Shown in pieces: positions 4,601-45,345 of a stretch of DNA of 64,000 nt (position 1 is its first letter; the number at the start of each line of letters is the position of its first letter). Below the pieces are notes generated by a model. The model saw only the letters and a program-made list of their open reading frames with translations. It made no database searches and was not told the origin of the DNA. Source of the DNA: Thuidium tamariscinum (Eukaryota > Streptophyta > Bryopsida > Hypnales > Thuidiaceae); the NCBI GenBank assembly GCA_947034885.2, contig OX344749.2, forward strand, positions 17,127,501-17,191,500, read 5' to 3'. A program made the position numbers and the translations under genes.

Positions 4601-6169
4601 TGAGAATGATGAACTGAGGCGGAAAGCTGCCCTCGGTTGGATGCTCGGTTGCTTATCAGGTTTTTCCATTACAAAACCCTAGAGATGTTCAAGGCGTATT
4701 TTTCAGCGCATTTAGTGCCGAAGCCTGCTAGATACCCTATTATACAATCTAGTTCTCAAACATTAAGCCCTAACGGACTAGGAGCCCGAATTGGGGCCTT
4801 GTAGTTTTTATAGCAGTTTTGAATAGGTCATGTGGGGATTTTTCTTCTTGTAGTATTTTTGTTTTCTGACCAATGCATGAAGTGTTCTTCACTGATTCTG
4901 AAGATCAATTTAAGATTTGGCTTAAAACTGACTTGTATTTTCCACAATATGATCAATCAGATTGGTCATCCTCAAACCATGAATCCTTGGTTAACAAGGA
5001 CGTGCTTTGTTTTGTGGCAGAACTTTATTTGCGGCTAGATCCTGAGGTTGGAACTGGCGGAATAATAAAACTGGTGCGCAAAGTTCAGCGAGAGTTGGAG
5101 TGTGGGAATCATGTTTTCAGCACTGGAAGTAAGATGCCTCCAAAGCTGGAATATGAGCTGATTCAAAGAGAGATCCGGAGGTTGATCAATGCTAGTGACC
5201 CTGCACGACCTGATTTAACTGAGAAGCTACGTACCAGTGCCGCCATGCTGAGGACCACCAAGCCAAAGGAATTCACAGGCGAGCTTCCAGGTGATCGTCG
5301 AAAGAATCTCAGGCTCCATAGATATCTTCGCGAGCAGGAGGCATCCTTGAGAAGCACTACTGCACCTTCACAACTGTAAGTGTTGCAACTCTCATATATG
5401 AACGGAAGTTGATGTACGTGAAAATTAAATGTGCAGGATATGAAGTGTGGAATTCACTTCCTATGTAGTGCTCCTGTCCAAATACCACAGCAATCAAATA
5501 GATGAAAACAAACCACTTGCAATCTGAGGAACTCACGTAACATCATTATCTGTCATAATGATTCTCAAATTCGTTATTTGATGTTTCAGCTCAATATCAT
5601 TAGCACATAATCAAGGTTGAATCTCACAAACCACAGAAAGAAAATAGGGTATCTACACCTTATGGAGACTAACCCAAAAGTTAACCGTATTGATTCTTGT
5701 TTAAAACGTTGAGTCTGAACATGAGCCTCTACGGTTGATGTTTGCATAATCAATACTTTGAAAATTCATGATTTATTCATATGGTGTCCAAAAAGTACAT
5801 GCTAAGAAGTGGTTGACTTGCCTTTCACCTCTTGAGTTATACTTGTATGCTGCTACACAATCGGTAAGATTTTTGTCCATGCATCTATTTTGCAGGCCTC
5901 TGAGACGGGAGTCGACTGCATGCCAAGGATGTATTCTGAGAGACTACCCCAAACAAAAGCATCATGTAGCATGTCACCAGGATGTCCAGAAAAGAGGACC
6001 TGGGACTTGGGCAGAGGTGAGGCTTGTGGAAGCAGATCAGGCGGCAGCCAAGGCCAAGCACACTTCATATCACGAGATCAAGAGAATTTTGCAGGGTTTG
6101 GAGAGTAGCATGACTTACCTTTTAGGCCAAGAAAGGCGGCGCCGTTTGTATAATCAACGTAGGTTATAG
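1665..6169 (+). CDS. Unrecognised coiled-coil protein, 7 exons, 599 aa
   Basis: I do not recognise this family. Coding exons are 1665-1949, 2353-2568, 3212-3438, 3673-3811, 4494-4659, 4883-5375 and 5896-6169. All introns are GT-AG, phases agree at every junction, and the sum is exactly 1,800 nt. Residues 1-30 are hydrophobic (SILLGLIIL) and could be a signal or anchor, followed by an acidic Ser/Glu stretch. Residues 168-344 (exons 3-5) are rich in Glu, Lys, Arg and Leu with few Pro or Gly: a long coiled coil broken by Gly/Cys-containing exon joins. Residues 345-508 are probably globular and basic near the end; 509-599 end in an Arg-rich tail (GQERRRRLYNQRRL). The start is the first ATG after an in-frame TAG. 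Exon 6 could instead start at 4905 without changing frame. Coiled coil suggests self-association or scaffolding; that is inference only. Confidence 0.72.
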
Positions 6170-13334: not shown

Positions 13335-13480
13335 CTAGATTAAAAAACTTTAATTTAAACTTTTTTGATTCAACACCCCCTTCCCCCCTTCCAAAATTTT
13401 TTTAAATTTAATTAAAAAAATTTGAGAGGGGGAAACGGGGTGCTGAATTAAAAAAATTTAAATTAAATTTTTTTTTCAAA
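13335..13480. repeat. AT-rich foldback with C/G-rich stem
   Basis: TTTAATTTAAACTTTTTTGA followed by CAACACCCCC faces, inverted, GGGGTGCTGAATTAAAAAAA and then TTTAAATTAAATTT. The two arms pair over about 50 bases. It may be a small MITE or a secondary inverted duplication. Confidence 0.5.
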
Positions 13481-13799
13481 TCTGGGTACATTGTTACAAG
13501 GAGCCCATCATCACTTGAAAGTTTGTCACTTCTTGAAAAAAAAAACTATGGGCACTAGGTGAATGTGCATCTGAAGCAGATAGATATAAACTCCGGTCTG
13601 CTTTGTTAAAAGCAGCCCGGCGTGAATAAAGTGTCTGTTCGTCATGACAATGAGCCAATGTCCACAGGATCAAGGGCTATTGATGCAAGACTACTCTTTC
13701 CTTTCGGAAATAGACACTAAAGTAACAAGTAACTAGTTTAAAGTGTCCAACATTTAAATTGTATTGTGCTAGATTTAAGTAGGTTTAATTGGATGGATT
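13481..13799. other. Flank of the LINE 3' end
   Basis: No gene. I looked here for a target-site duplication matching the far end of the LINE near 24.8-25.0 kb and did not find one I trust. Confidence 0.4.
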
Positions 13800-13869
13800 T
13801 GATTTTAATTTAGTTATTTATTTATTAGCATTAGATGAGTATTCAATGTAATGTGCATTGTTGGGTTTC

Positions 13870-16800
13870 TTATTCTATTGGAAGTGGTTGGTTGTTTTCA
13901 ATTCTTCTTTTATGTAAAATAATTGATCCGGCGTACTGTATAGCTATGGTATTGATTGCTTTGAAAGTATGTGTTAGAGCAGTTTCTGTTAATTTAAGTT
14001 TGGTTTCAAGAATTTTGATTGAAGGAGTGTGTGTTGTTCCTCGAGCTCCTGCTGTAATGACAATAAGTGGATCTATTTTCCATCCTTGGGCCGAGATACT
14101 ATTTATTAATGGTTGGTATTTTTGAATTTTATTGTCTATGGTTGTTTGCGCAAATCTATCATTAGTGTATGTAAATTCAATGAATTGTATTGTGAGATTA
14201 TTATCTGGGATATTTGGTGGGTTACTTTGGGAGGAGAGTCCTTTTATCCAAAGGATATCTGGTTTAAATCTAGCGTTATAATGACATCTTTGTCTTTGGC
14301 AAGCGCAAGGTAACAACCATGGGGGGACTGTATTTTCTGGAGGATTGTTATTGAATGTTCCTGCATTCATGAGAGTGTAATATCTACTATTTTTGGTAGA
14401 TAGGATTAGTTTTCTTAATTCCCATACTGCTTTGTTATGTCTTTTGACACGAAGGGCATGAATATGATGTTGTTTGCATTTTAAGAGTACATGGAGCCAT
14501 GTGTCTACGTCATGAGAGTTACAAATGGAGCATGTGATGGATGGAAATCTCTCAATCCCAAAAAATAGTTGTTTTCTAGCATTACCCATATATTGACCTG
14601 TGCGGAATTTTAATAGGCTTGTTTTTTGTGGGTCGGTTATTTCAGGGTTCGACCAAAATTCATTAGAGAGGTCCTTATGTATATCGGGGTTAAGGGTCCA
14701 TTTACTAATGTTAGGAAATCGTTGTGCCATTACTTCAAGATTTTTGTCATGATCATGTTTGATAATGTATGTTCCTAAACATCTAACTGGACCTTTGTCA
14801 GGACGATGGGCCTGACCTAGCCATTCATCTTTTTGGTAATAGAATGGAGTAGTATGTGCAAATTCATAGTTTTTTGAGGCAAATTTATATTCTTTTGTTG
14901 TGCCAGTTTTGGCAAGTTTGTCTGCTTGTTCATTGCCTACAATATTAGTGTGTCCTTTAATTTTGGAAATTATTGTGGGTTGTGTACGGCTTTGAAGCAT
15001 TTCTACTATAGATTCTAATATAGTTTTGTCTGCATGATTTCGATGTAGGGTGGGGTGTTTTAGTTGTGTATTAATGACATATAGACAGTTTAGGTAGTCC
15101 GTGAATATATAGGCAGGTTCGTGTGGATATTGGGTAGTGATTATGCGTAAAGTTTTGTGTATGGCCATGAGCTCAGCTCTAAAAATGGTTTGTAAACCAG
15201 GCAGCCGTTTAGAAATTTGGATTTCTTCTTTGAGAGAGTTGTATATGCCGTATCCAGCTTTTTCGCGTATCCAATGTCCATTTGCGTGTTGCTGCGGTGG
15301 TATAAATGATCCGTCTGTGTAGTAGCTATACTGCGGTGGAAATTTTAATTGAGGGATAGATGTATACGTTGGTAACGAGGGCATATATAAATTTATTGAG
15401 TTATAGTTGATTTTGTAAGTGAGTTTTTTCCAATTTGAATTCTTTTTCACTATTACATTACTAGGTGTTGGTGCAGCAATTTGTATGTGATACTGTGTTA
15501 TTTGCATATCTTCGAGGATCATTGTGAGGGGGTCTAGTTGGTTGGATGGTCCAATATTGTGGTTTTGGTGATGTATGTAGAGAATATGTATTGCAAGAGG
15601 TTCAGTGTGCGTCCGTTTGTTTAGTTCAATTGGAATTGTTGGATTTTCGTATGTAATAGTGTCCGCAGCAAAATGTGCAATAACGTGTGTATCTTCAAAT
15701 GGTCCAATATATGGAGAGAAGTTATGGTACCAATTTATATCCGGTATAACTAATATAGTTATGGTGTTTATATCATGTTTGGCTGCTAGTCTTGCCCAAT
15801 GTAGTGCTTGTTGGGCTGTTTCTTCATTTTGTGGATGTGCAAAACCTCTGCCTTTCCATTTGTATTGAAATGCTTTGCCAAGTGATCCAAATACTTTATC
15901 CCTCTCAAAGAAAGAATAAAATTGTGTGATTAGTGTGGAACAGGTGATTGGTGATGAGAAATATGAATGGGAAATGTCAAATGTTTTTGTTAAGGAGTCT
16001 AAGATATTTTGTGGAAGGGAGTGTTGCGATGTTCTTAGCGTGTTTTTATTAGGTTTCTTATATTTGTAACGTTGATATAGCCATGTGATCTCAGTTTCAA
16101 ATGATTGTGTAGGTGGTGTCAAGCCATGTGTATTGTGAATAGCGGCTTGATATTGTGTCCATAGCCATTGTAATCTAGTGGTTGGTATAGTTATGAGGTA
16201 GTTACCGGTGTCAAGGTATATATGTGTTAGTTCATTTTGTGTTATTATGGTAGGTGTGTTTGTTATTATATCTTTTTCTGGATTGCATTCATTAGTTGAT
16301 ATTTGCATAAGTGGAATTATTGTTGGAGGTGGGATAAATCTAGTATCTCTAGACTGTTCATGGTTAAAATTGATCATGATGAGGTTTTTGTAGTATTTGT
16401 GTTGTTGTTTTGTATAATATTGTGTTAGTAGATTGATGTTGTGTGCAATTACCGTTGGTTGGCTAATCGGAAAAAGATTTCTTTGTGGTAGCCATTTATT
16501 ATAAGTGGTGTCATCTTCAAGTGTCCATTGGCATAGGTATATATTAACTTTTTTACTAATTTTATATTTGTCTTTGGTTTCTTTGATTTGGTGATCTATT
16601 ATATTGTTTATGGGGAAGGTAAGTGGGTTGTCTAGAATATGTAGGGGTGGATTTTGTTGTTGCAGTATTTGTATTGATGGTGGATGTAGAGGGTTATATG
16701 GAGTCCTGGGGATTAAATCTCGGTTATCTGAAATGTATTGTGCTTTTAGAGTTCTTGGTAGTGGGTGTCTTGGACAAGGTTGTAAACATTCAGGTGTACA

Positions 16801-19800
16801 TTGTGGATAACAGAAAATTTGTTCAGCTATATTTAAAGCAGCTTTTTCAATTTTGGTTGGAGTTTTGTAGTATATTTTAAAGTCTTCAGGTGACATTAGA
16901 TTTGTTCCATTTGGAAGCGTAATGTGTTTAATTTTATGTATATTATGTAGAAGAAGTTTATGTAGCATTTTAAGGGAAAGTTTGGGATTTATATGTGGTA
17001 GAGTAAGAGTAGTTTGTGACATCCATTCTTTTTCAAGTTCGGTTGGATGTAGTTGAAAGTTTTCTATTACACTCATGAGGTGGATGTTTGCTTCATGTTT
17101 TAGAAGAAAGAGGGTCCGTATTGTAGGTGATCTGACACAGTCTTGTTGTTTGATTCTTGGAATGTTTTCTGCTCCTCCATACTTGGCCAAGATATGTTGG
17201 ATGAGTCCTCTATATATTATTCCTAGTCTTCCTGGATCATTTAGAGCATTTCTAAGTTGTTCACTAATGCAATGTAAGTATGCATTTTTAAGAGAGAAGG
17301 CTTCAAGTCCAAAAAATTCATGTGGAAGTTGTGCTATTACGTTGGCAGTGCATTTTGGTAATCCACATATAGTTTTCTGAATTCCAATGATCTTCTTATC
17401 AAGTTTTTAAATTGTTGGTAGAGAATATGGCACTGCATAGAAACTATAGGCTATACCTGCTCTAATTACAGTGTCAACCATATTGATTTTTTGATTTATT
17501 GTAGCTGGGCACTTAGTAAGTTGTGCACATTGATCTATTACCTTTTTAGTGGTGATATGAGTTTGTAGTTTCCATTTTAGAGAAGGTACTAGTTGTATTC
17601 CTAAATATGGGTAGGGTTCGTGTTGGTGTAAAACTGGTATTTGTTGGTTTCTGTAGTTAATGTTCATGGCGAGTATTTGAGTTTTAAAGATGTCCGGTTT
17701 TGTTTTTGATTTATTTGGGCATCCAGTGATTGCACATTTTGGTACTCCAAGATCCATTCCTGCCCATTCACAATATTTATCTAGTTTGTTTAGTTGAGAT
17801 TGGAGTGATTGGGGATTATTCGATGTAGCTGCTAAGTCATCTGCATATGCTGAAGAACTTATAGTTATTTGGGATGTACCAAAGTTGTAGCCATTATTAC
17901 CTTTTTGGAGCCATCTGAGTAGCGGTTCTAGAAAAATGAGGAAGAGATATGGACTGAGTGTGTCACCTTGAATGGTTCCTCTTTGTATTTGTATTGGTTT
18001 GGTTTTACCAAAATGTTCTCATGTAAAAATTGTAGTGGAGTTTGAGTAAATATTTCCTATTAGTGCTACTGCGTCTTTTGGGTATCCAAGGTCTAACATT
18101 ATAGCCAAGAGCCTTGCGTGGTCTATGGAACCAAAGGCGTTTTTGAAGTCTATATATAATATGTAGATGTCTTGATTAGTGAAGCGTGCATCTTCTAGAG
18201 CTGCTATAAGAAGTTGTAATTGTCGTGATGTGCTACGTTCTAGTCGAAATCCTTCTTGGCTATCATGAAGGATTTGGTATTTTTCGCCATAGTTTGAGAG
18301 GGTTAAAGTGAGAGTACTAGTGAAAAATTTGTAGATGGTGTTTGCAAGTGCAATTGGTCTATGATTTGATAATTGAGAAGAATCTCCTTTTTTATAAAGT
18401 AATATAGTCAGACTAGTTTTCCAAGATGATGGGATTTGTTTGTGTTTATAACAATGTTTGAAGAATAGAAAAAGGAGGTTTTGAAAACATTGAGGTATAT
18501 TTTTAAGGATTATATTTGCAATTAAATCTGGGCCAGGGGTTTTATTATTGGATAAGTGTTTTAAACATATGTCATATGTTTCTTTGGTGAAGTAAGAATG
18601 TAAGGGGGTATCCGGGGTTCCACGTTTGTCTATAGCAAAACCATTTAGGTCATGCCATGGATATTGTCTCACTGCGCATGTACAATGTGGTGGGTGTTCT
18701 GGTAGATAATAGCATGTTGGAACTGTAGGGCTATTATTAATTGATTGTTGAGTGTGTATTTCATTGGCAATGTCTACCGGGTTGGTTAATAAATTGTTTT
18801 GTCTATCCAAGATGCAATCTAGTGAGGGGGTATTTTGGTTTTTGAATATTTATTTATTTATTTTTTTGGGACTTTTTTCATATAGTTGTCTATATTTTGA
18901 GATTGCCTTTCTGATGCATTTTTGCGTATATTGTGTGGTTATTTTACGAGCTTGTATGTTTGCAGTTTTGGCTAGTTTTGCTATGGTGTTAATCCATTCT
19001 TGTTGGTTTGTACCATTTAATTCAGGTGTTGGAATGTGGGCATTGTTGTGGTTACGTATTTCGTCTATTATTGGATGGGTTGTCCAATTTGTTGTGTGTT
19101 TGGATATGTAGATTGCTTTCCTAATCAGGTGGTAAGTAGAGAGTTGAGCTTTCCATTGTTTTTGTATTTTTCTTGGTAAGAAACCACCTTGTTGGGCTGT
19201 ACGATTTGTTAGGTGGGGTAATGGTGGTGCGCTGCAGTTTTCAAGTATTTTATTGGATATACTTTGTATGAGGTGGTCTAAGGTATTGCATGCTTCATGC
19301 CATTGGTGGTTTGTTATATTTTCATTTATAAGAATAGTGGTCAGTTCTGTTATTTGAATTGCATGTTCCTCAAAAAAATTTGTTTTGAATCTTTCTATAT
19401 TCTCCTGGGGAATAGGGTTTAGGATTCGTGGTAGTTTATTTATTATTGGTGTTGTAGGTCTTGCTAGTAATGTATTTGGTGGTATATGTAATGTTACTGG
19501 TGAGTGGTCTGAATTGAGGTTGTGGTTATGATTTGTAGTTGCTGTGTATAAGGCCAAGTTCGGTGTATTTATATAGTAACCATCTATTAGACTAGTTTGA
19601 GTATAGTTGTGACCACCTTGTCTAGAAAAAGGGCTATTAGTAGATATATATGTGAGTTGTTGGCTGTCTGTAAATCTACGCCATTCTATGTCTTCGGTTT
19701 GTAGCAAAGTTATGTTAAATTCATTTTGTCTACCAATGAGGGCAATGTCTCTGTTGAAGTCTCCACATAGAATATAAGTGTGTTGTGAATGTAAGGAAAT

Positions 19801-21129
19801 TTGTTGCCTTATACATTGTTGAATTTTGGGTATCAGTTGTAAATCATCTGTGTGTGATGGCATGTGCATGTGGAGTAGTAGCCATGGTTGTAAAGGGTGA
19901 TTGTTGATTTTTATAATTTGTAAATAGGGTGAAAATTCGGCTGGGGACGGAATTTTGGTAATGTTTCCTGGATATGCATATTTTTTATTTATGAGTGTAA
20001 GGAGTCCACCCCGTCCTGGTGTATATGGTCGTCTCTGTTGTATACATCTAGTTAATGCATGCGTATTATTGAATATTAATTTATATTGTGGAAATAAGTT
20101 TTCGATATATTTTGTGGATTTTGTTGCAGTTATTTTGGTTTCTTGTATTGTTATTATTGCAGGGGTAGTTGGTGTGTGTGATGTTAGTTGTTGGAGGCTT
20201 GGTAAGGCTGTGTTGATCGATGCGGCGTTCCATGTGGTCATGTATGTATTAGAATTAGTAGTTTGTGTGTTTGTAGTGTCTATGTTTGGTAAATTGGGTA
20301 GAGGGATGGGGTGGGAGTATTCTATTAAGGTGTCTTTGCATTTTAATGCTTCTAGAAGTAGTTTCTCAGGTAGATATGGAAATTCATTAAGCATAAGTTG
20401 TAAGGTTGGTGGTGCAGGTGTTTGTTTAATAAAATTGTATAATTCTTTATGAATGGAATTGGAAGGTGAAATGATGTCTTGGTGTAGGTTCTGAAATTGA
20501 GTGTATGGGTGTGGTGTTGTGATATGCCTTTCTGGTAGGTTTTGTAAGAGGGCCATTTTTTCTAGTAATAGTGTGGTCCAGTCTGGGATTGATATTTGTC
20601 TTAGTAGATGGTTACATGTCTCTAATTGTGGGCTAATTGTGGTAATAAGTGCAAATAAAAGTCTTGGTGGTGGGTGGTGTTGGTTTTGATGAATGTATTG
20701 TGATATGTATGGGTAGTTTATAGTAGTGTCGTTGTGTTGAGGGTGTGTAATGTTTATTATAGGTGAAAATAGTTTTGCTAAATGTTGGTATTCGGGTTGT
20801 AGTTTTATTGTGCATGTTATAAAATACATTTTATATCTTTTTTTATGTGGAGTTGGGTGGGTGGTAAGAATGTCGGGCATGGGTCCCGGGTTAGTTTCTA
20901 TATCACCACCTAAAAGAATTGTAATGTACAAAGGGAATTTTTGGTGTTTTGGAATAAGATGTGTGGTTTTCAGTTTTACTTGGATGTGTTGGTAAATTTT
21001 ACTAAATATTTGAATATGGTTGCAAACAAATATAATGTGTTTATGTGTATATAAGTGTGATTTATAAGTGTTTAATTTTTGTGTAAGAGATCTAATGTCA
21101 AAAAAGAGGTGGGAATTTGATGATGGCAT
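13870..21129 (-). CDS. LINE ORF2 polyprotein (2A, APE, RT, RNase H, CCHC, RLE), 3 internal stops
   Basis: One reading frame runs 2,420 codons from ATG 21,129 to TAA 13,870. It is interrupted only by TAA at 18,850-18,852, TGA at 18,019-18,021 and TAA at 17,407-17,409; the frame is the same on both sides of each. Approximate residues: 2A motif 76-83; APE endonuclease 297-549; RT 858-1184 with YADD at 1095-1098; methyltransferase-like segment 1709-1860; RNase H 1934-2080; CCHC 2200-2218; restriction-like endonuclease 2275-2395. The protein would nick the target, prime reverse transcription there, remove the RNA strand and insert the copy. TGA from CGA and TAA from CAA would fit C-to-T decay of methylated cytosine, but I infer this without a second copy. 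Residues 84-296 and 1185-1700 have no family I can name. Confidence 0.85.
13950..14310 (-). other. Restriction-like (PD-(D/E)xK) endonuclease domain of ORF2
   Basis: After a Cys-rich turn (PCACQRQRCHYN) come FKPDILW (Asp2291), FIEFTYTND (Glu2318) and NKIQKYQPL (Lys2334, Lys2337, Tyr2338). This order, R/K-PD, then D/E-x-T, then K-x2-K-Y, is the active-site signature of the endonuclease in R2, NeSL and Dualen LINEs. The region between Asp and Glu is about 27 residues, longer than in R2, so a profile alignment would be needed to exclude chance. Confidence 0.75.
14476..14532 (-). other. CCHC zinc knuckle of ORF2
   Basis: CSICNSHDVDTWLHVLLKC has the spacing C-x2-C-x9-H-x4-C (residues 2200-2218). 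This is the C-terminal knuckle found in many LINE proteins; in R2-type proteins it lies just before the restriction-like endonuclease, as it does here. Confidence 0.85.
14890..15330 (-). other. RNase H domain of ORF2
   Basis: YYTDGSFI (Asp1939), IFRAELMAI (Glu), IFTDYLNCL (Asp) and VGNEQADKLAK (Asp) give all four carboxylates of an RNase HI active site, plus the GHTNIVGNEQAD loop with its His. It lies after RT, as in Dualen and I-group LINEs. The domain is uninterrupted. Confidence 0.92.
15550..16005 (-). other. PCIF1-like methyltransferase-fold segment of ORF2
   Basis: The order of short blocks recalls the methyltransferase core of PCIF1/CAPAM, the cap-adjacent adenosine N6-methyltransferase. 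SSPITC and a Phe/Tyr-rich stretch stand where PCIF1 has a SPLNC-like block. Next come VFGSLGKAF (compare YFGSRG) and FAHP where the catalytic NPPF would be. Then follow ITILVIPDINWYH (compare SFIVFIPEW) and a late hydrophobic strand IHILYIHHQ. Because NPPF is replaced by AHPQ, methylation activity is doubtful. The match is from memory of the family and needs a profile search. It may be a decoy fold kept for RNA binding. Confidence 0.45.
17578..18558 (-). other. Reverse transcriptase domain of ORF2
   Basis: Non-LTR RT blocks run in order: NKTPGPD, HRPIALANTIYKF, QEGFRLERST, LYIDFKNAFGSID (first catalytic Asp), RGTIQGDTLSPYLFLIF, AYADDLAA (catalytic pair, 17,836-17,847) and YLGIQL. The TGA at 18,019-18,021 falls between the LYIDFKNAF and GDTLSP blocks, so this copy cannot make full RT without read-through. 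Confidence 0.92.
19483..20241 (-). other. APE-type endonuclease domain of ORF2
   Basis: The conserved blocks appear in order: TWNAASI (Asn301), IQETKI (Glu330), CGDFNRD (Asp457), SLIDGYYI (Asp516) and NSDHSPV (Asp541, His542). These are the metal-binding and catalytic residues of the exonuclease-endonuclease-phosphatase fold in LINE APE domains. All are present, and no stop lies inside this domain. Confidence 0.9.
20881..20934 (-). other. 2A-like ribosome-skipping motif in ORF2
   Basis: The residues LYITILLGGDIETNPGP followed by Pro-preceding Met match the 2A signature: a hydrophobic run and then D-[VI]-E-x-N-P-G-P. In 2A peptides the ribosome skips the Gly-Pro bond. That would release an 82-residue leader from the rest of ORF2, which would start at Pro83. 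2A motifs at the N-terminus of LINE proteins are known from trypanosome L1Tc and from several animal LINEs. Confidence 0.88.
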
Positions 21130-21272
21130 GAAGGGAAGCAAGAGCAAAATATATATATTATATTGCCACCAAGTGGCAGTGTACAGTAGTGTAATGTAAA
21201 TAATGGATGATATAATACTAAAGTATATGTCTATGGCACTCTGTTTTTAGGTGATGATGTTGTAGAACTGGA

Positions 21273-22952
21273 CTAGTTTGGCGGTGAGGAGGATTCGGGG
21301 GCTTTAATGGTTGGGCGAGTCAAACCTTTAATCATCTGCATGCTCTGAGCTAAGAGGGATTCTAGGTTTGTCAGGTTACCTCTAAGCTCCTGATCTACCT
21401 TGTCTGCATAACTTTGTGCCTCTATTGTCAGTTCATCTTTCATTTGACTCATGTCGGACTTGAATTCCATACGCAGCTTCAAGTTTTCTTTGGAAATCGC
21501 CTCTCCTATCAGCGCTGATAGTTCTTCTCTCTGTAAAGATTGTTTGGGGGCAGAGGATGATGCTGTGTTCTGCATTGCTTCAACTGTACCAGCTAGAGCA
21601 GTGTTGATGTCCAAAAAAACCCATTTCTGAAGGGTTTCATCATTGGGTTTGGCTGTGCCGTCTAGAGAGTTAGGATGGGGCTGAAATTCCACCCATTTGT
21701 ACTGGAGGCGTGTTGATTTCTTCACATGTTGCTTATAGACTGCGGCATTGAGACATTCAATGTTGGCTACACCACTGTGAGCATCTCCTTTATGCCGTGG
21801 GAAGAAGATGGAATTGACATTTTTGACTCCAAAGTAACCATAAAATCCCTGGGTTACTTCAGCAATGGATTTGGTGAGGTTGATGCCTTTGACAATGAGT
21901 ACTAAGCAATTTCTCTTGTTCACATCCTCGCGAGTCAGTTGATTCAAGTCTCGATTAACTGGTTGTAGAAGTTCTCCCAATACTGCAATTCGTTGCTGCT
22001 TGATTTTTGCCAGTTGCTCTGGTGATGTTGTTGTTAACCAGCCATAAGGTTCAGCGGTAGGTTTTTGAACCTGTGTTAGTTCAAATTCGAAGCCCCTATG
22101 AAAACTCTCTTCGAGTGTCTGTTTGAAGAGGTGGTGGGGTTCCATGTTCCGGATGGTCTCACTATTAATCTTGATAGAGAGTAGGGTACCAGAGGTAATA
22201 GGATCAAATGATTTGCAGACTTTGGCTATAGTGAGTATGTCATCATCTAGAGGGATGGCAAATACTCTAGTACCACGGAGTAGAGCTTTACCATCAATTT
22301 TTGGGTTTTGAAGGTGAATTCTGGCCATGCCTGACCAGACTTTGGAGTTTTTGGCTCCATGACATAGGATTGCTATGGGGTCAGCAATGCTATCACCTAA
22401 CTGTATGTTCATCTCTTGAAAACGCCCCAGGATCTTTCCCATGGCTTGTTTTTGGGTCAATGGGAACTGAGGTTTTTCAAAATGTAAGAGAATGTGGTAA
22501 TCGAGAGCGAGTTGGGTGTGCATGTTTACCTCAACATCAAAGGGAATTTGAGTCAGGTTGAAGTGTTGGCCTGCAATGTTGTCAAGTCTTGATGTAGGCC
22601 ACAGCTTTTATTGCACGTGCGGAAATGACATACGAGCTTTTGTAAGGTCATCTGCTTCTTGTGGATTGTATCCCTGAGAAATGAGTTCTGCTGCTGATGC
22701 TTTGTTGATGAATGGCGGCATGCTGGCCTCGTAGGCAAGGGTTTCCATAGTAGGAAACCCATACCAGAATTCATACAATATTGGTGCACTGGGGAGGGCC
22801 AGAGTTGTGACGGTGCCTTTCGATTTCTTTTGAGTAGATTCTACAGCTTCTGGTGTAGTACGCTTCTGTGATCCAGATGCATCTTCCATCTCAATTTCGT
22901 TTGAGTAAGCCATATGTCTTTGAACTTTGTTGCTTTGTGGAGGGTCTGACAT
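21273..22952 (-). CDS. LINE ORF1 protein (RNA-binding-like plus coiled coil), 1 internal stop
   Basis: From ATG 22,952 (MSDPPQSNK) the frame runs 560 codons to 21,273. A single TAA interrupts it at 22,608-22,610 (codon 115), with the same frame continuing on both sides. Residues 1-60 are polar with a basic KKSK patch. About 200-240 (WSGMARIHLQNP...) and about 348-433 (CLVLIVKGI...GVANIECL) look like two RRM-type alpha-beta folds. About 473-548 is a clear coiled coil ending QMIKGL. RRM plus coiled coil is the usual make-up of LINE ORF1 proteins, which form trimers on the element's RNA. Only 143 bases separate it from ORF2. Confidence 0.75.
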
Positions 22953-23624
22953 TGTACCTGCGTAGAATTGAATTTGATTTTTAGGCCAAATGTGCAAAAC
23001 TAGTATGATTTGAGGAATGTTAAGGCATGTATGTATGCGCCTTTTTTTTAGAAAAAATATAATATTTTGAGACTTTTTAGGGTAGAGAGGATCCATGTTT
23101 TGGAGAAGGATTGAAGTTTTAAGAGTTTGGTCTATGTTTGAACAAGTATGTTGTAAAGTGTATGTATTACAAGGGAAGTTTCTATGTATTGCAATGGGTT
23201 TGATATGGATTGCGATTTGTTTGAAGTATAATGTAAAAACCCTCCCGGTAGCAGTAGGCTCCTGGGCGTGAGTGGGATTACAATATACATATAAAGAAGA
23301 GGTGTCCAAATAGATATTTTTATACAAAAAAATACAATAGAAGAAGTGGGGGTATAGAAGCATACCTCTGGTCTTGGGTTGTATCGTATGTGAGTCTGGA
23401 GGTGGAGGTGTAGACGTGGTATGGCGCCTTTGGATTCGAAATTCTTCTTCTCCAGATGTACTTGGGCGGATGGCGTGTTGAGTTTTACTTGAAGAGCCTG
23501 TGGTCTTCGTGCTACGGGATGACTGTCGGTTTGAAGTAGCTGGGGCCTTGGGCGTCGGGCGCAACCTGGTGTCTTTCACACTACGTCTTGAATCTACCAA
23601 CTTGTCTTGAGGCTTGGTCTTCAT
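22953..23624 (-). other. LINE leader frame with a candidate in-frame intron
   Basis: An ATG at 23,624 opens a Ser/Thr/Lys-rich frame (MKTKPQDKLVDSRR...) in the same frame as ORF1. At about 23,366 it meets a donor-like AGAG|GTATGC. From there to a pyrimidine-rich acceptor (CTACGCAG at about 22,963) the DNA is T-rich and encodes hydrophobic strings unlike either side. Removing it keeps the frame and joins KTRG to TMSDPP. It is either an intron of frame-neutral length or an AT-rich coding insert. The frame start overlaps the stop of the preceding frame as ATGA. Confidence 0.4.
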
Positions 23625-23704
23625 GCAGGTTCATTTGAGTTGGGCAGGTTCCGGTGGAATATGACTGAGTCTTGATGGCGCTGCGGCGTGCTGGTTGGAA
23701 GGAG

Positions 23705-23992
23705 ATGCGGCGTAGGAGCTGGGGTGTGTTGGCAGGATGGAGATGTAGTGCGTTGGGGTGGTGCAGCGCGGGGTCCGGTTGAGGATGAAGGTGCGGCCGG
23801 CCTGGACGGAGGAAATTCGGCGTAGGAAGTGGATGCGGTGCGGGGCCCGACTGGAGATGAAGCTGCGGCGTGCTTGGGTGGAGGAGATTCGGCGCGGTGG
23901 GTGGATGCGACGCGGGGTCCAGTTGAAGGTGGAGCTGCGGCGTGGCTCGATGAAGAAGAATCGGCGCGGTGGGTGGTTTCGGCGCAGGGTCC
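23705..23992 (-). repeat. Four 72-bp tandem repeats in the LINE leader
   Basis: Read on the minus strand in the frame ending at 23,621, four 24-residue units each begin GP. They carry the pattern THRAES/STSYAEF followed by a Pro/Ala/Ser run. The DNA is strongly GC-rich, unlike the AT-rich ORFs downstream. A partial fifth unit lies just upstream. Confidence 0.7.
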
Positions 23993-24069
23993 GGCTGGAG
24001 GTGCGATGTGGGGTCGAGGGGCAGTTGAATCGGCTCGGTGGGCGGATTCGACCGGGGGGCAGTTGAATC

Positions 24070-24819
24070 TCAAGGGTCCGGGGGCAGCTGAATCGCGGAG
24101 TCCGTTGGCACAGGCGGCGTCGCAGGGTCTGTGTGGAGTCGCGGTGAGGTGGCCGTATGTGCCGGTGCTTGCGCAGGGCTGTGATCGAACGGGCTTGCGC
24201 GGGTCGCAGGGTCTATGTGGAGTCGCGGTGAGGTGGCCGTATGTGCCGGTGCTTGCTCAGGGTTGTGATCGAGCTGGCTTGCGCGGGTAGCCTCCAGCAC
24301 TAGAAAGTTGAGATAATTTTGCTGTAGCGATTCGGTGCAGAGGTTCAGAGAGATGTGTACTTCGAGAATGTATCTGGGTTTAGCTAAGCAGCGGCACGAT
24401 GAGCATCCGTTACAATGCATACTAATGAGGAGGCTCTCTTTTGCATTATGCTGTAACACGGTTTTGTGGAGATGATATTTGTTGTTCTTCGTGACCACTG
24501 TGAGTGGCATTCGGTGCTTGTCGATGTGATAGTTTGCATGTTGAACTACCTGTTTGGATATGGGGCGGTGTGTTTGCACTGCCATTGGTAATGGAATGTT
24601 TGTATCTACGTGGGGTGGATAGGGGTAGCTATAGATCTCAGTAACTGAGAGAACACCACTGTTATCGTTTTCTACTTTGAACACACTATGCTCGATCTGC
24701 ATGCTCGGTTTTGGGCGGTCGGGGTGACTTGGGGATGGCGAGGCGGGATTCACTCCTGTGAGCTCCAGTCTTCGAGGATGGCCGATTCGGGATCTTGTTT
24801 CAAGTATCTCAGTCTCCAT
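24070..24819 (-). CDS. Upstream frame of the LINE leader, 249 aa, unknown
   Basis: From ATG 24,819 an open frame runs to TGA at 24,070, ending in the 84-bp repeats. The first 150 residues are not repetitive and read like real protein. They include a Cys cluster, CNGCSSCRC, followed by a beta-rich PRYILEVHISLNL stretch. This is faintly like the zinc-plus-OB arrangement of replication protein A C-terminal domains, but too weak to name. It could be an extra LINE ORF, part of a longer ORF1 split by a frame change in the GC-rich repeats, or unrelated flanking DNA. Confidence 0.35.
   Translation of the reverse strand: METEILETRSRIGHPRRLELTGVNPASPSPSHPDRPKPSMQIEHSVFKVENDNSGVLSVTEIYSYPYPPHVDTNIPLPMAVQTHRPISKQVVQHANYHIDKHRMPLTVVTKNNKYHLHKTVLQHNAKESLLISMHCNGCSSCRCLAKPRYILEVHISLNLCTESLQQNYLNFLVLEATRASQLDHNPEQAPAHTATSPRLHIDPATRASPFDHSPAQAPAHTATSPRLHTDPATPPVPTDSAIQLPPDP
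24119..24286 (-). repeat. Two 84-bp tandem repeats in the LINE leader
   Basis: Two adjacent copies (24,119-24,202 and 24,203-24,286) differ at only a few positions. They encode 28-residue units of the form ATRAS-DH-PAQAPAHTATSP on the minus strand. The period differs from the 72-bp array next door, so the two arose separately. Confidence 0.8.
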
Positions 24820-24830
24820 GCGCACCCTGT

Positions 24831-25381
24831 CTTCCCCAGCCGCTCAGCACAAGACAGGGATGAAGCACTTCATGTGGAGACAACTGAACCACAAAATTCA
24901 GGGATTGAAAAAACATGGGAAAACTGCTATGGACTCTCAGCATAAAACAGTTAAATGGCATATTTCAGAGCGCCAATATTGAAATGCTCAAGTAACTAGA
25001 GTGTTTTTTTTGGCAGGACATTGAATTGAAAACTATACCAGCAATTTCATTGAAATATACCATTCCAAACTTCCAATGAACATGAGATTCTCTACAGTAG
25101 GTATAGGTTACCTCACTTTTAGAGGGGCACGTGGATGACGATTTTCCTCCATTTTCATGACACTGGCCAACATTCACGATGTTTGTCTGATAACTTCCAT
25201 CTACACCAATCCTTATTTGCAAAGCTTTATGCAAAGAAATGTCACAATTTTGGCACCAAACAAGCAAAATGAACAAGAACGGTGTGCCGTGAGGCTATGT
25301 TTGAGGTGAAAAATAATATTAGTTTTATTGCTAAAAAATATTAATATATTAATTAGAGGGAAAATTGAACAAAATTATTAA
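24831..25381. other. Flank of the LINE 5' end
   Basis: No gene. The exact 5' boundary of the LINE lies somewhere near 24.83 kb and I cannot fix it. From about 25,300 the DNA becomes very AT-rich before the CCCTAAAGG repeat. Confidence 0.35.
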
Positions 25382-27506: not shown

Positions 27507-27658
27507 CACTACAAGAAAATGGGGGTTAAATGACTTGTTCACAATGATTACACCAACAACAATGATTGCAAAATGACTACAAAATGACTATTTTGCAGTC
27601 ATTGTTGTTGGTGAAGTCATTGTGGACAAGTCATTTATACCCCCATTTTTTTGTAATG
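27507..27658. mobile_element. CACTA (En/Spm) foldback MITE, 152 bp, with CTA duplication
   Basis: The left end is CACTACAAGAAAATGGGGG, the classic plant CACTA terminus. The right end, inverted, reads CATTACAAAAAAATGGGGG. The two halves pair through CAACAACAATGA and TCATTGTTGTTG over most of the length. The 3-bp duplication CTA flanks both ends (27,504-27,506 and 27,659-27,661), as expected for CACTA transposons. It has no coding capacity and depends on a transposase elsewhere. Confidence 0.85.
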
Positions 27659-43508: not shown

Positions 43509-45345
43509 TCAGGCAACTGCACTCGAACGTCCATACATGTTCGTGAGCCCATAGATGAAACGCTCGGAAGTTCGGAAGAGGCCACCAAGGGACAGTTTCG
43601 ACGTTGGAAGTTCAGGCTCTTGTCGGGGGAGTCCCTTCACTTTCAAGGAATGGCCGATGGACTTCCGCATCTCATCTACAATTTTCATATTAACAGGACA
43701 GCCTGAGGCGTCGATAACGTAGAACACGTTAAAAGCCTTATCATCTCGTGTAGTCACATCTGCACGGGCAACGGAGAGGCCATTCTCTCGAAATATTCTG
43801 GTCACGTCTGACAAAAGACCTACCCGATCGTTCATGCAGAGCTCCAACCTCAAACCCTGCGTAAGCACAGAAATGGTAAGTTCCCGTTCATACCTGTATA
43901 TCAAAAGCACCGGACCACTGAGTACCAAGTGACGAGAACACTTTTCCACCAGCACTTCTACATGATCTCAGGAGTGCACAATTCATACCTCACTGGTTCT
44001 CCGATCGATGGCGGCTTGAAGGCACCCCTTCAGGTGGTGTTCGGCAGCAGTGTCGAGGGTACAACCGTTTACATGACGAATGTAAAACTCCTGCATCGTG
44101 TCAGGGCCTGGAGAGTTGATCAATGCGTGATATATCACGTATTGCATATCTGTCAGTGTACAGACGATATCAAACAAAAGCTTGGGACGATCCTTGCACT
44201 GGATGCTGACCATGGAGTATCCTCGTTCATTCCTCTTAATTTGAATCGTCGGCCAGCTCTCAGCATTTCGAGAGCACTCTGGCTCCTCGTAACCTCTATC
44301 GTCGTACATCAACTGGTGAAGTCGTCTCTCGACATGAGTAATTTCAGTAGCATATTCTATCTTACACCTCGCTGTATCGTCATCGTAATCCCCTTTCATG
44401 ATCCTCGACAACTGCTCCTTAATATTGTCAAGCTTCCCCTGACTCTCAATAGGACGGCACGTGGTCATATCGGTGAAGTAAATAACAGAGGCAACCCGTT
44501 GATTGTGCGTCCAAACCTCAGCAGCATTCACATTACAGGCCATACTCGTCAGAACTGCCGAAAGTTCAGACAGGAGCCCCGGTCTATCCGGTCCTGTAAG
44601 CTCGATCACAGTATACTCAGAGAAAATCAACCCCGTCGAGCGACGCAGCAAATCAGCGGACGACTTCTCTCTCTTGGTTCTGTATCCCAATGACTGCAAT
44701 CCAGCATCACCAACCAGACAGTTAGATCATTGGTTACATTGCCGATTTCTAAAGTTTCTAAAATGAAAGAGCAAGTGACGAAACACATAAGAGAAAACAT
44801 GTCGAGCAACCTCAATAACAGTGAATGTCAGATTACCTTCTGGATGTATTCGATGGTATCCTGGTCGCTAATTTTGCGCCCCTCTTGATCCACAACATGA
44901 AATACTGCAAAAGTACAAACTGCAGAACGTCAGTGTAAAATCACTCTGTACATCACAGAAACACGTCCAGAACAGTTACACGATGCTGAGTTCCAGGCAA
45001 AATCTTACCATCCATAAACCAGCCCCCGTCAGAGAAGATGTCGGACTTCGTAATCGTCAGATCGAGGTCAGTGAGAACTTGAACGACATTCAAAAGAATA
45101 CCATGCCTGTTCGCACTGTGCACCTTCACAACGGTGGCGTTGCTGTACGTATCATTCTCAATCGTCACCCTGACATGTCAGAATGCACTAATCAGATGAA
45201 GTTTCGGTTACAGAAGAGAGAGAAGAAAATAGACTTCCGTGGGAAAAGGCTTCGATACGAAGAGTTCGACATACCTCGGAGGGTTGAAGGTGGAGCACGC
45301 AGTCTCATAATCAGGGTCAAAGTATGGCCACCTGGGGTTGTCCAT
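43509..45345 (-). CDS. ACR: ACR-type protein with four ACT domains, 5 coding exons, 450 aa
   Basis: Coding exons on the minus strand are 45,345-45,275, 45,169-45,009, 44,904-44,837, 44,693-43,989 and 43,856-43,509. All introns are GT-AG and the sum is 1,353 nt. The protein starts MDNPRWPYFDPDYET, the short acidic N-terminus usual for ACR proteins. ACT domains lie at about 37-107 (VKVHSANRHGILL), 127-200 (IELTGPDRPGLLSELSAVL), 259-332 (SIQCKDRPKLLFDIVCTL) and 337-410 (LELCMNDRVGLLSDVTR). The tail LGGLFRTSERF is typical. ACR proteins are plant uridylyltransferase-like amino-acid sensors without a catalytic domain, thought to bind amino acids and signal carbon/nitrogen or stress status. Length is normal and every junction is phase-correct, so the gene looks intact. 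Which ACR subgroup it belongs to cannot be told by eye. Confidence 0.95.

Follow-up and report, generated by a model that had tools for sequence, protein, structure and literature searches.

A degenerate LINE of probable Dualen/RandI type, with two predicted endonucleases and a PCIF1-like domain, in the moss Thuidium tamariscinum

We examined a 64,000-nucleotide stretch of the Thuidium tamariscinum genome (assembly GCA_947034885.2, contig OX344749.2, positions 17,127,501 to 17,191,500; hereafter the window), in which a preliminary description based on the letters had placed a plant long interspersed nuclear element (LINE) that encodes both an apurinic/apyrimidinic-type endonuclease (APE) and a restriction-like endonuclease (RLE), the architecture known as Dualen/RandI. 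Translation of the minus strand revealed a frame of about 2,420 codons from ATG to TAA at 13870..21129, here called open reading frame 2 (ORF2), in which all domains stay in the same frame. The APE-type endonuclease (19495..20238, minus strand) was recognized by Pfam and by its motifs, and the residues TTWN, QETK, GDFN, LIDG and SDH were each found once and in the stated order. Pfam scans of ORF2 were run on the pieces between its in-frame stops, and they matched this region to Exo_endo_phos_2 (PF14529, 6e-6) and Exo_endo_phos (PF03372, 7e-5), both just under the cut-offs. The APE lies N-terminal to the reverse transcriptase (RT), as in Dualen/RandI. The RT (17590..18540, minus strand; GPD, DFKNAFG, QGDTLSP and a single YADD) is split by a TGA, and RVT_1 matched its two halves at 5e-10 and 4e-14; both halves also matched RT chains in the PDB. 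Further along the same strand are a PCIF1/CAPAM-like domain (15742..16119), an RNase H domain (14902..15330; PF00075, 4.6e-13) whose D/E/D/D motifs YTDGS, RAEL, FTDY and NEQAD each occur once, and a CCHC zinc-finger motif of the form CSIC...H...C followed by an RHN motif (14428..14532). The C-terminal signature proposed earlier was also present, reading KPD (14265-14257), IEFT (14181-14170) and KIQKY (14130-14116), then GARG (14049-14038). Thus the motif content of the preliminary description was confirmed in full.

Relatives of this element were then sought in other collections. Five scans of viral contigs found no relative, and a scan of genome contigs yielded matches at 12 loci. The best of these, L001, is a contig in a metagenome-assembled genome (MAG) assigned to Mollicutes and encodes APE-like motifs and an RT. 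A second contig of the same MAG, L015, is 9,489 bp long and carries a stop-free frame of 3,038 amino acids that is open at the 5′ end of the contig, with the same domain order as ORF2 of the window and Pfam matches to APE (2.5e-11), RT (5.9e-24) and RNase H (1.4e-15). When the two proteins were compared by blastp, collinear matches covered residues 376-1322 (7.6e-83), 1666-1802 (1.2e-7, the PCIF1-like domain) and 1909-2417 (2.8e-30, from RNase H to the RLE). Among 295 genomes of the phylum of this MAG, the RT at E <= 1e-15 was found in this genome only, and we read the two contigs as eukaryotic contamination of a bacterial MAG; a search of the genome for a chlorophyll-binding protein found none. 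Between the RT and the PCIF1-like domain, L015 also contains a cysteine-rich stretch resembling PHD/RING fingers (5862-6050 of the contig; best E 0.0044, below cut-off), and the window piece matching it gave no such Pfam match.

The C-terminal region was compared with RLEs of the R2 kind by profile-profile alignment. A reference profile was built from three loci that end in an R2-like RLE (L002, L008 and L010), and it found five R2 sequences in the PDB with E values of 4e-21 to 9e-16. The two-row profile of the window and L015 matched this reference with a probability of 92-93% (E 3e-7 to 5e-7) when the CCHC motif was included. A scan with the CCHC motif gave 23.4-27.5 for five L1-like proteins and 27.5 for the window and so did not discriminate between them; the RLE call therefore relies on core tests from which the motif was removed. 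In these, the two-row profile scored 29.3 (probability 37%) over 81 columns, from KPD past GARG. None of 200 column shuffles reached this score (maximum 22.7), and the reversed profile gave 14.7. The window core alone scored 23.9 over 42 columns against a profile of the R2 protein R2Tg and the three RLE loci, above all of 300 shuffles (maximum 20.6), and when the core profile was run over nine full proteins the window came top with this score and in the right place, the next reaching 19.3. In the alignment with R2Tg the window matches at the P and D of KPD, at both lysines of K..KY and the tyrosine that follows, and at the G of GARG. Collectively, these data suggest that the C-terminus of ORF2 (14005..14268, minus strand) is an RLE of PD-(D/E)xK-like type, located C-terminal to the RT in the same frame.

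Several results weigh against this assignment. By itself the ORF2 C-terminus matched no nuclease in the PDB or Pfam, and the Pfam matches seen, that of the window to DUF4177 at 0.17 and that of L015 to Ku at 0.038, were at chance level. When R2Tg was added to the reference, the two-row core score fell to 25.8 (probability 22%, E 0.001; a value without shuffle control), and the match of the window core as a single sequence spans only K..KY to GARG. L015 alone scored 16.0 against the core profile, within the controls. The aspartate of the R2 motif DVT faces F in the window, and the acidic E of the window and of L015 comes two residues later. Furthermore, L015 reads RPD...VELKYC where the window reads KPD...IEFT...KIQKY; it matches R2Tg at P, D, Y and G and has A and Q at the lysine positions, so that neither lysine of K..KY is kept, and it contains an E-x-K (ELK) of its own. 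AlphaFold2 with four sequences gave no confident fold for the region (pLDDT, the per-residue confidence of the model, 38). The proposal of an RLE thus held as far as a profile match to RLE-type elements with P, D, both lysines and G aligned; a direct database match was not obtained, and the acidic residue is displaced by two.

To place the element, RT trees of 15 and 16 rows were built, with no Dualen/RandI, I-clade or plant L1 rows; the L1 side consisted of one PDB row and three L1-like rows from MAG contigs. RT matches were found in five of the seven genomes of the other loci, from which four additional LINE contigs were fetched and three entered the tree. The window RT clustered with L001 and L015 with support of 100/100 in both trees, and the four L1 rows together formed one side of a 100/100 branch. 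Because L015, itself combining APE and RLE, is a sister at 100/100, possession of two nucleases is a property of a lineage, not of one copy. It had been pointed out that an RT nested firmly inside L1 would speak against the Dualen/RandI reading; placing the three dual-endonuclease rows beside the PDB L1 row, that is, inside L1, was rejected (p-AU, from the approximately unbiased test, 4e-4). Uniting the window alone with the four L1 rows was also rejected (p-AU 8e-7), as was uniting it with five of the six RLE-type rows, L008 being left out (p 1e-4), and both of these constraints also break the link to L001 and L015. Two other placements of the three rows were not rejected, one beside the R2 pair (p 0.111) and one beside the whole set of four L1 rows (p 0.245), and this latitude weighs against the Dualen/RandI reading. 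On RT sequence, a dual-endonuclease clade outside the sampled L1 rows is well supported, and more than one sister placement is compatible with it. Separately, three loci of a Cyanobium MAG (L006, L028 and L029) encode LINE-like proteins, L028 with APE-like motifs; L006 and L028 formed a pair (100/99) that stood separate from both the L1 and the R2 rows.

These comparisons bear on what kind of element this is. An ordinary plant LINE of the APE-bearing L1 type, with RNase H and with a tail that resembles an RLE by chance, would share the APE, RT, RNase H and CCHC seen here. Plant L1 elements with RNase H are known (cited in PMC4640811), CCHC fingers are common to L1-like proteins, the tail is unmatched by any curated model, and the admissible sister position to all four L1 rows fits such an origin. 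Plant L1 elements are, however, without an RLE, nesting within the sampled L1 rows was rejected for the clade and grouping with them for the window alone, the core match exceeded all 200 and all 300 shuffles, and the RT halves scored best against R2 in the PDB (57.8 and 41.0 bits) compared with 33.3 and 25.7 bits for L1. We consider this explanation highly improbable.

The likeness to R2 raises a second alternative, namely that the lineage arose within the RLE-bearing R2/NeSL/HERO-type elements, gained its APE independently and is no kin of Dualen. R2 elements have neither APE nor RNase H. Among PDB chains the RT is closest to R2 (R2Tg; 9nl3, 9nl2 and 8gh6), the C-terminal layout of CCHC, RH, KPD, acidic residue, K..KY and GARG is common to both, and the R2-like K..KY and GARG of the RLE together with the admissible placement beside the R2 pair are in line with such a descent. 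In contrast to R2, the acidic residue is shifted here, the RT forms a clade of its own and the RLE is not the sole endonuclease, since an APE is present. As a second element that carries both APE and RLE, L015 argues against a gain confined to this copy, and the lineage may itself be that of Dualen. We regard such an origin as very unlikely.

Based on the architecture, with APE, RT, RNase H and RLE in a single frame, we conclude that the element is very probably a degenerate, nearly full-length non-LTR (lacking long terminal repeats) retrotransposon of the dual-endonuclease Dualen/RandI type. The kinship with RandI is drawn from architecture, the rows compared having included no reference Dualen sequence, and this tempers the assignment. 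The preliminary classification is supported by the domains, their order, L015 and the RT clade. Like the Dualen/RandI elements of Chlamydomonas and its kin and of cryptophytes, this one combines APE and RLE with RNase H. It differs in two features that the excerpts consulted on Dualen (PMC4640811 and PMC3636483) do not mention, namely the PCIF1-like domain and the 2A-like motif near the ORF2 start. It also has an ORF1-like frame, and its host is a plant and not a green alga or cryptophyte. The original description of Dualen is said to include a cysteine-protease domain; none of the ORF2 pieces scanned with Pfam matched a peptidase at E <= 1.

The PCIF1/CAPAM-like domain between RT and RNase H is the newest part of an element that is otherwise, by architecture, of the known Dualen/RandI kind. 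It matched PF12237 (PCIF1_WW) above the cut-off, with E values of 2.5e-13 for the piece between stops and 3.1e-14 for the slice; the family is described as a CAPAM-like methyltransferase and not a WW domain (PMC7641849). In a phmmer search of the PDB, zebrafish PCIF1 (0.0066) and human PCIF1 (0.0097) were the sole matches of the slice at E <= 10. The alignment with PCIF1/CAPAM (6irv and 6irx) is collinear around SLP...F..SP..C...Q..S.F...D..FGS, common to both. The likeness shown here covers the PF12237 region; PCIF1 itself has an N-terminal WW domain and a cap-binding helical domain, and the domain described here sits inside a retrotransposon frame. In L015 the corresponding region was found with the window as query (4.2e-5), and PF12237 matched its slice at 0.0017, below the curated cut-off; searching the genome that contains L015 for the PF12237 family turned up nothing at E <= 1. 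The two-row profile of the window and L015 found PCIF1 in the PDB at E values of 0.51 and 1.5, weaker than the window alone. AlphaFold2 with a single sequence returned no confident fold for this region (pLDDT 35).

We then inspected the catalytic loop. In PCIF1 this is NPPF, and mutants of N553 and F556 serve as inactive forms of the enzyme (PMC10544176). The corresponding position is occupied by HPQN in the window (15837-15826) and by HPIY (CHPIY) in L015, and because the catalytic NPPF is replaced, the domain probably does not methylate. An active adenine methyltransferase that marks element RNA or complementary DNA (cDNA) would agree with the strength of the family match and with the description of PF12237 as a methyltransferase, and PCIF1 itself can act on RNA and on RNA/DNA hybrids (PMC10544176); against the altered loop in both elements and the use of N553 and F556 mutants as inactive controls, we find it unlikely. 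PCIF1 recognizes the cap via its helical domain (PMC10544176). We tentatively suggest, as a speculation on which we place little weight, that the PCIF1-like domain of the dual-endonuclease lineage (window and L015), after loss of the catalytic NPPF, took on a new role in which it reads the 5′ end of the element RNA and perhaps the cap there. If true, this would allow the complex that carries out reverse transcription to choose full-length templates or to deal with completion of the 5′ end. No device of this kind was found described for LINEs in the parts of the literature searched.

Close to the N-terminus of ORF2, a motif match identified the 2A-like sequence DIETNPGP (20881..20904, minus strand). 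The 2A motif is given as D[V/I]ExNPGP, with an upstream context also required (PMC4981915). By analogy with related families, the working of intact relatives is most likely as follows. The element RNA would direct synthesis of both the ORF1 and the ORF2 protein; at the 2A-like motif an N-terminal leader peptide of about 82 residues, counted from the ATG at 21129, may be released. One endonuclease would nick the target, the RT would prime on the nick (target-primed reverse transcription) and RNase H would clear the template RNA; cleavage of the second strand may fall to the other endonuclease. For the PCIF1-like domain the most likely role is RNA binding, not methylation, and cap binding is a further guess. 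The sequence itself shows the domains, their order in one frame, their presence also in L015, the RT clade and the altered NPPF; target-primed reverse transcription, the separate tasks of the two nucleases, activity of the 2A-like motif and RNA binding are all taken from family knowledge.

Elements with two endonucleases have been regarded as evidence that APE-type LINEs arose via replacement of the RLE (PMC4640811). They have been described from green algae (PMC4438587, 2015; PMC8226300, 2021) and from cryptophytes (PMC12747079, 2025), and a search of the literature by titles and the beginnings of abstracts turned up neither a land-plant Dualen nor a LINE containing a PCIF1-like domain. The near-complete plant copy, together with the stop-free L015, would widen the known range and supply sequences with which to place the clade. 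The R2-like K..KY in the window compared with ELK in L015, with the acidic residue off by two in both, informs on movement of the RLE active site, and the PCIF1-like domain, shared by both elements but altered at its catalytic loop, adds a new feature that calls for explanation.

The state and extent of the present copy were also determined. ORF2 contains three in-frame stops (18852-18850, 18021-18019 and 17409-17407), two of them TAA and one TGA, and therefore no full ORF2 protein would be made from this copy, a point against reading it as a working dual-endonuclease element. Together with one stop in the ORF1-like frame, they mark the copy, judged by its sequence, as dead. An unusual genetic code with read-through of stops was considered and is unlikely, there being only these three stops in about 2,425 codons. 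The copy had been called nearly whole, which is right for its length and not for its broken ORF2. Similarly, the coordinates 13870-21129 that had been given for the element delimit the ORF2 frame on the minus strand, and the element reaches further, tentatively from about 24988 to 13737. This inferred whole of about 11.25 kb (13737..24988, minus strand) is based on a strong strand asymmetry in composition that spans about 13.7 to about 24.9 kb, and on a candidate flanking repeat. The repeat, CTAGTTACTTG on the minus strand, is 11 bp long, and its copies at 24989..24999 (5′) and 13726..13736 (3′) match exactly and lie near both composition borders. In 100 shuffles of the area searched the longest match had a mean of 9.95 and a maximum of 13, and a longer, A/T-rich match of 12 bp was present elsewhere. 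Since a length of 11 bp is not significant by this measure, its identity as the target-site duplication of the element is plausible but unproven.

The 5′ leader of the element is GC-rich. Two tandem arrays lie in it at 23756..24288 on the minus strand, with 3.5 copies of a 72-bp unit and 2.1 copies of an 84-bp unit. Downstream of these, translation gave an ORF1-like frame (21273..22952, minus strand) with a plausible ATG at 22952, a TAG at its end and one in-frame TAA at 22610-22608; the reading is open further upstream of this ATG. No Pfam match at E <= 1 was obtained for the ORF1-like stretch 21276-22523. In the leader, an intron-like GT...AG stretch (22960-23370) separates this ATG from an open frame further upstream and may be a spliced intron or chance. 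Directly past the 3′ border of the element lies an inverted repeat (13342-13474) with 61-nt arms that are 85% complementary and an 11-nt loop, resembling the foldback of a miniature inverted-repeat transposable element (MITE).

The window as a whole has a GC content of 37.6%, and Rfam and tRNA scans of it gave no match. An ACR gene mentioned in the preliminary description was found nearby, where two open stretches on the minus strand, 43512-43967 and 43986-44726, matched ACT domains in Pfam (4.9e-10 and 2.9e-16, respectively). The plant model ACR10_N was above its cut-off in the former (8.5e-7), and ACR9 models were just below theirs in the latter. Together with the GC content and the foldback described next, these stretches agree with a plant host. 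A further foldback of 152 bp lies at 27507-27658, with the terminal sequences CACTACAAGAAAATGGGGG and CCCCCATTTTTTTGTAATG and 3-bp flanks CTA/CTA; it resembles a plant MITE of the CACTA type.

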